22,893 bases of DNA from a virus: positions 1-22,893 of the IMG/VR virus record IMGVR_UViG_3300008108_003773. One strand, given 5' to 3'. Below the pieces are notes generated by a model that worked only from the letters and a program-made list of their open reading frames with translations, was not told the DNA's origin and ran no database searches. Numbering within the stretch: position 1 is the first letter of the stretch; every line of letters starts with the position of its first letter. Positions 12,913-13,385 of this stretch are shown one piece after another. The position numbers were made by a program, and so were the translations under genes.

Positions 12913-13385
12913 ATGGATCTCTGGAAAAATTACAAAAAAGTTTTATTTGAAACTTTTCCTGATCTCACTTACCAATCTACTTGGTGTCAGTGGGAGGGTA
13001 AAATTAATCTAGATGCAAAACTCTATTCCAGTCCAACAATTCTAAAATCTAGAGAAGCAGAAATCTGGAATGAAAAAACCTGCATCTATAATAATATAAT
13101 CTATCCAAAGACTGGTTCTGATTTACCTTGTTTTGGGATGGATCTTATGGGGTTCTTTGAAAAGAAGGTTGTCATTACCTTTGATTTTCAGACTTCACCA
13201 AATACTTGCTTAAATTTAAAGAAATGCTAGACTTAAAGAAACCATCTGGACTAGACACTTCAGAGTATCATGATTTTGATTCTTACATGACAAAACTAGA
13301 TCCTGTTGCTGGTTATCTTTCTAGTAACTTTGGAAAAGAAAAATCAGAACAATTTGTAAACGATTTTCTTTTTGAATATGGTTAA
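12913..13385 (+). pseudogene. pebS: PebS-type ferredoxin-dependent bilin reductase, broken by internal deletion and frameshift
   Basis: Bilin reductases of this family turn biliverdin into phycobilins for host light-harvesting antennae; phage PebS makes phycoerythrobilin. The first 105-residue frame (stop at 13228-13230) carries the family core YPKTGSDLPCFGMDLM and [10 protein letters not shown], including the catalytic-type Asp at residue 77. From about 13203 a different frame, shifted by one base, encodes the C-terminal part: KFKEML, then [15 protein letters not shown] and [12 protein letters not shown], ending at TAA 13383-13385. About 50 residues between DFQ and KFKEM, as judged from remembered PebS sequences (about 233 aa), are missing. 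Without them the active-site pocket cannot be complete. PcyX or another reductase is possible; the family is clear, the exact product is not. The ATGGTTAA junction overlaps the next gene start. Confidence 0.82.

Follow-up and report, generated by a model that had tools for sequence, protein, structure and literature searches.

Introduction

Cyanophage phycoerythrobilin synthase (PebS) is defined by its four-electron reduction of biliverdin to phycoerythrobilin. The closest described form is PebS of phage P-SSM2 (PDB 2vck), which, like the protein considered here, is carried by a T4-like cyanophage. The gene is accessory, with only 29 records in the phage collection. That pebS is exclusive to phages is supported by PMC13198022. 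The gp45 protein, encoded nearby in the locus described below, is in T4 the clamp of the replisome and the activator of late transcription, and its gene counts among the T4-family core genes (PMC2988020).

Here we describe a stretch of 22,893 nucleotides, IMG/VR record IMGVR_UViG_3300008108_003773, referred to in its entirety as the window. Both ends of PebS are encoded within positions 12913-13385, separated by a frame-shifting deletion. Comparison with near-identical contigs leads us to conclude that this break is very probably an artefact of assembly, and that the window represents a fragment of a T4-like cyanophage whose pebS, located between cobS and DUF3310/gp45, is ordinary and functional.

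Results

Genome setting and the two parts of pebS

The window contains the T4-like cyanophage genes gp23, uvsW, a gp46-like ATPase, a cobS-like AAA ATPase, gp45, gp44, gp62, regA and gp43, and at the DNA level it matches Synechococcus and Prochlorococcus phages best; gene content and DNA matches together place pebS in a T4-like cyanophage. The order cobS - pebS - DUF3310 - gp45 is found in the window and likewise in its siblings, the near-identical contigs introduced below. Two further reading frames were observed in the window: a sulfotransferase-family ORF (Pfam PF13469) at 7793-8629, between gp46 and a large gene at 8790-11003, and a 354-aa ORF at 16337-17401 whose matches are PHROG 19197, a family of unknown function, and Pfam DruA (Druantia defence protein), the latter with 44.9 bits over a cut-off of 27. 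This 354-aa ORF adjoins the clamp-loader gene gp62 within the cyanophage replication cluster. The features of the pebS-gp45 stretch are as follows.

12913..13189, + strand: 5' part of pebS, codons 1-92; 2vck E = 1.1e-26; Pfam Fe_bilin_red; 100% identical to the intact sibling L168
13189..13190, + strand: junction of deletion 1; 148 bp of L168 absent, 1 bp microhomology, frameshift
13190..13385, + strand: 3' part of pebS, about codons 142-206 plus TAA, in another frame; 2vck E = 1.7e-20; identical to L168 over 13194-13385
13372..13947, + strand: DUF3310 / nucleotide-kinase-like ORF, 191 aa as listed; Pfam DUF3310; alignment with L082/L084
13913..13914, + strand: junction of deletion 2; 207 bp of L168 and L169 absent, 0 bp microhomology
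13914..14389, + strand: N-terminally truncated gp45 sliding clamp, codons 65-222 left; Pfam gp45-slide_C; PHROG 223

The first frame runs from the ATG at 12913 to the TAG at 13228-13230 and encodes 105 aa, of which the final 12 codons, after 13189, are out of frame. Its residues 3-94 match P-SSM2 PebS (2vck) 23-122, while a C-terminal piece of 63 aa from the second frame matches 2vck 171-232; in Pfam Fe_bilin_red the two frames cover profile positions 34-99 and 191-228 of 228. The preliminary description, made from the letters of the window, had read these frames, offset by one base, as the start and the end of a PebS-type bilin reductase, and these matches bear that reading out. It had also placed the opening of the second frame at 13203; the end of this frame at the TAA (13383-13385) holds, and its PebS homology starts at about 13190.

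The reference for the missing part is L168 (also L002 and L082; IMG/VR 3300008110_006574), a near-identical contig in which pebS is a single frame of 206 codons. Against it, deletion 1 measures exactly 148 bp, a length not divisible by 3, and removes about 49 residues, corresponding to sibling residues 94-142; 14 of these are conserved to 99% or more in a set of 117 distinct intact proteins. An internal deletion with frameshift and a loss of some 50 residues had been proposed, and the alignment gives it these exact bounds. It likewise agrees with the argument that a one-base sequencing error could not explain the break, a cause now ruled out by the absence of 148 bp. Consequently, the window holds no uninterrupted pebS reading frame. 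The 31-mer spanning the 13189/13190 junction had no exact match in the viral contigs searched.

Identity of the intact sibling protein

Residues 3-205 of the intact sibling protein (L168/L082) align with 2vck 23-232 (E = 1.2e-72), and the protein matches PHROG 7278 over its full length; the window copy, in contrast, matches PebS at its two ends only. The next-best match, PebA, belongs to the same superfamily and scores far lower (E = 3.4e-11), with 72 bits where the curated cut-off is 263. The sibling protein is thus a full-length ferredoxin-dependent bilin reductase that, by best match, lies nearer to PebS than to PebA, PebB or PcyA. In this best-match comparison with PebA, PebB and PcyA, it is identified from its sequence as PebS, and the PebS activity is predicted for it. 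It differs from P-SSM2 PebS in its shorter N-terminus (206 versus 233 aa), whereas the window copy additionally lacks the 148 bp.

A further deletion, at gp45

Deletion 2 takes out the stop of the DUF3310 gene and, in gp45, everything from the start through codon 64, so that the last codons of the DUF3310 ORF in the window are out-of-frame gp45 sequence. The intact sibling gp45 matches RB69 gp45 across its full length (E = 2.1e-25), in contrast to the window copy without its first 64 residues. Furthermore, all 118 comparison loci in which no end truncates gp45 have the whole gene; only the window (with L001, its own copy) departs from this. T4-type phages depend on gp45 to replicate and to transcribe their late genes. 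A phage with this gp45 lesion should be unable to grow, barring a second gp45 copy outside the incomplete genome fragment; a second copy of pebS or gp45 elsewhere in the genome is possible. Between gp45 and gp44, L003 (IMG/VR 3300021962_000276) has about 490 extra bases that are absent from the window (14389-14458) and from both siblings; this is a real lineage difference.

Private deletions in sibling contigs

Three further near-identical contigs were compared with the window: L169 (also L084 and L163; IMGVR_UViG_3300008107_006277), about 99.9% identical to the window (99.5-100%), L172 (IMGVR_UViG_3300008261_002002) and L173 (3300008267_004641). L169 has a 203-bp deletion inside pebS and a 250-bp deletion across the pebS end and the DUF3310 start, and its gp45 is intact. 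L172 has lost three stretches relative to the window: 168 bp from gp23 (major capsid), 134 bp from gp46 and 136 bp from the gene at 8790-11003 (deletion sites at about positions 2173, 8876 and 11377). No such deletions were found in L168 and L173 on comparison with the window and the siblings. Each stretch deleted in one contig occurs in at least one other contig, and none of the seven deletions (two in the window, two in L169, three in L172) is common to two of these three contigs.

All seven are 134-250 bp long, and two of the seven lengths (207 and 168) are multiples of 3, as random lengths would give. Microhomology is 0-1 bp at every junction, compared with a chance mean of 0.81 for a random join (P = 0.12 for a sum of seven of at most 2). 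With no repeat at the junctions and microhomology at chance level, repeat-mediated deletion was ruled out. The deletions fall in pebS, pebS/DUF3310, gp45, gp23, gp46 and the large gene of unknown family, without regard to gene function. Four of the seven lie in about 0.9 kb around pebS and gp45, a grouping that might point to a local biological hotspot; the other three are far off. Scanning of the window sequence revealed no N.

pebS across loci and selection on the remains

Among the loci surveyed, which include several duplicate fetches of the same contigs and are therefore not counts of independent phages, pebS was full length in 151, cut by contig ends in 8 and affected by a small frameshift in one. 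The last, L037, is a more distant contig, with the frameshift around codon 115-121, near 3336-3339. The only other broken copies are those of the window (with L001) and L169. A short natural variant of the enzyme was ruled out, the full-length gene being present in 151 loci and the short form in none. We also considered two candidates for the same lesion, each hinted at by tblastn alignment to query residue 105. The DNA of isolate S-PRM1 (L007) has the complete middle part of the gene. In L009 the alignments flank a stretch that has not been deleted, and this locus does not belong to the broken ones.

In comparison with L003, whose DNA is 84-85% identical to the window in the pebS region, the remaining pebS codons of the window show 21 synonymous and no replacement changes; purifying selection on the gene has therefore been strong until now. 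The intact gene of L168 compared with that of L003 gives a dN of 0.010 and a dS of 0.356. Neither a lesion common to relatives nor relaxed selection, as would be expected of a pseudogene arising by loss, was found: the junction is unique, and the siblings are intact or carry other lesions.

Discussion

The preliminary description had left the choice between a real loss of bilin synthesis and a local assembly deletion. The deletions in gp45 and in the siblings, together with the synonymous-only changes in pebS, strongly favour the latter and make the former very unlikely. According to the loss explanation, a single phage lineage stopped making phycoerythrobilin through a real and very recent deletion, for instance where the local host makes the gene unnecessary. 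The clean deletion, the flanks fully identical to the sibling and the accessory nature of pebS are what such an event would leave; however, the gp45 deletion in the same contig is equally clean, the pebS junction recurs in no other viral contig searched, the remains carry no replacement change and L169 has a different pebS lesion. We judge the pebS break to be almost certainly an assembly error, because in this contig the essential gp45 has lost its start as well and near-identical contigs have other gaps, just as fatal, at different sites.

The number of lesions could instead point to real defective genomes, that is, a phage population with a burst of fresh random 130-250-bp deletions, including that in pebS, maintained because mixed infections allow complementation. 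In keeping with this idea, three near-identical contigs have seven distinct deletions between them, and essential genes are among those hit, yet the deleted molecules would need to dominate the sample to set the consensus, the junctions show neither direct repeats nor long microhomology, and L168 and L173 are free of deletions; we regard it as extremely improbable. Practically negligible is the notion that the shortened frame encodes a working smaller reductase, or that the gene is read by programmed frameshifting. Although two overlapping frames are present, the 49 residues, 14 of them nearly invariant, are gone at the DNA level, so that a frameshift cannot restore them, and the arrangement occurs in no other locus surveyed.

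An assembly artefact, by contrast, is favoured over evolution because four different lesions lie within 0.9 kb and three elsewhere in contigs that are otherwise almost identical. Essential genes (gp45, gp23 and gp46) are damaged regardless of frame, and all seven deletions are private. We suggest that, during assembly or scaffolding, two contig ends were fused over 148 bp of pebS with loss of the bases between, and that the same false joining took place over 207 bp at gp45. The cause would be a collapsed gap between paired contigs in a short-read assembly, one that left no N in the window, and the molecules in the sample would carry an intact pebS.

The recognition of an artefact averts a false claim that this phage has lost bilin synthesis. 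Silent deletions of 130-250 bp without runs of N are present in some IMG/VR contigs (here the window, 3300008107_006277 and 3300008261_002002), and comparison of near-identical contigs, together with inspection of nearby essential genes, gp45 or gp23 for example, offers a cheap test for them. Where phage metabolic genes are surveyed, such deletions would be mistaken for pseudogenes.
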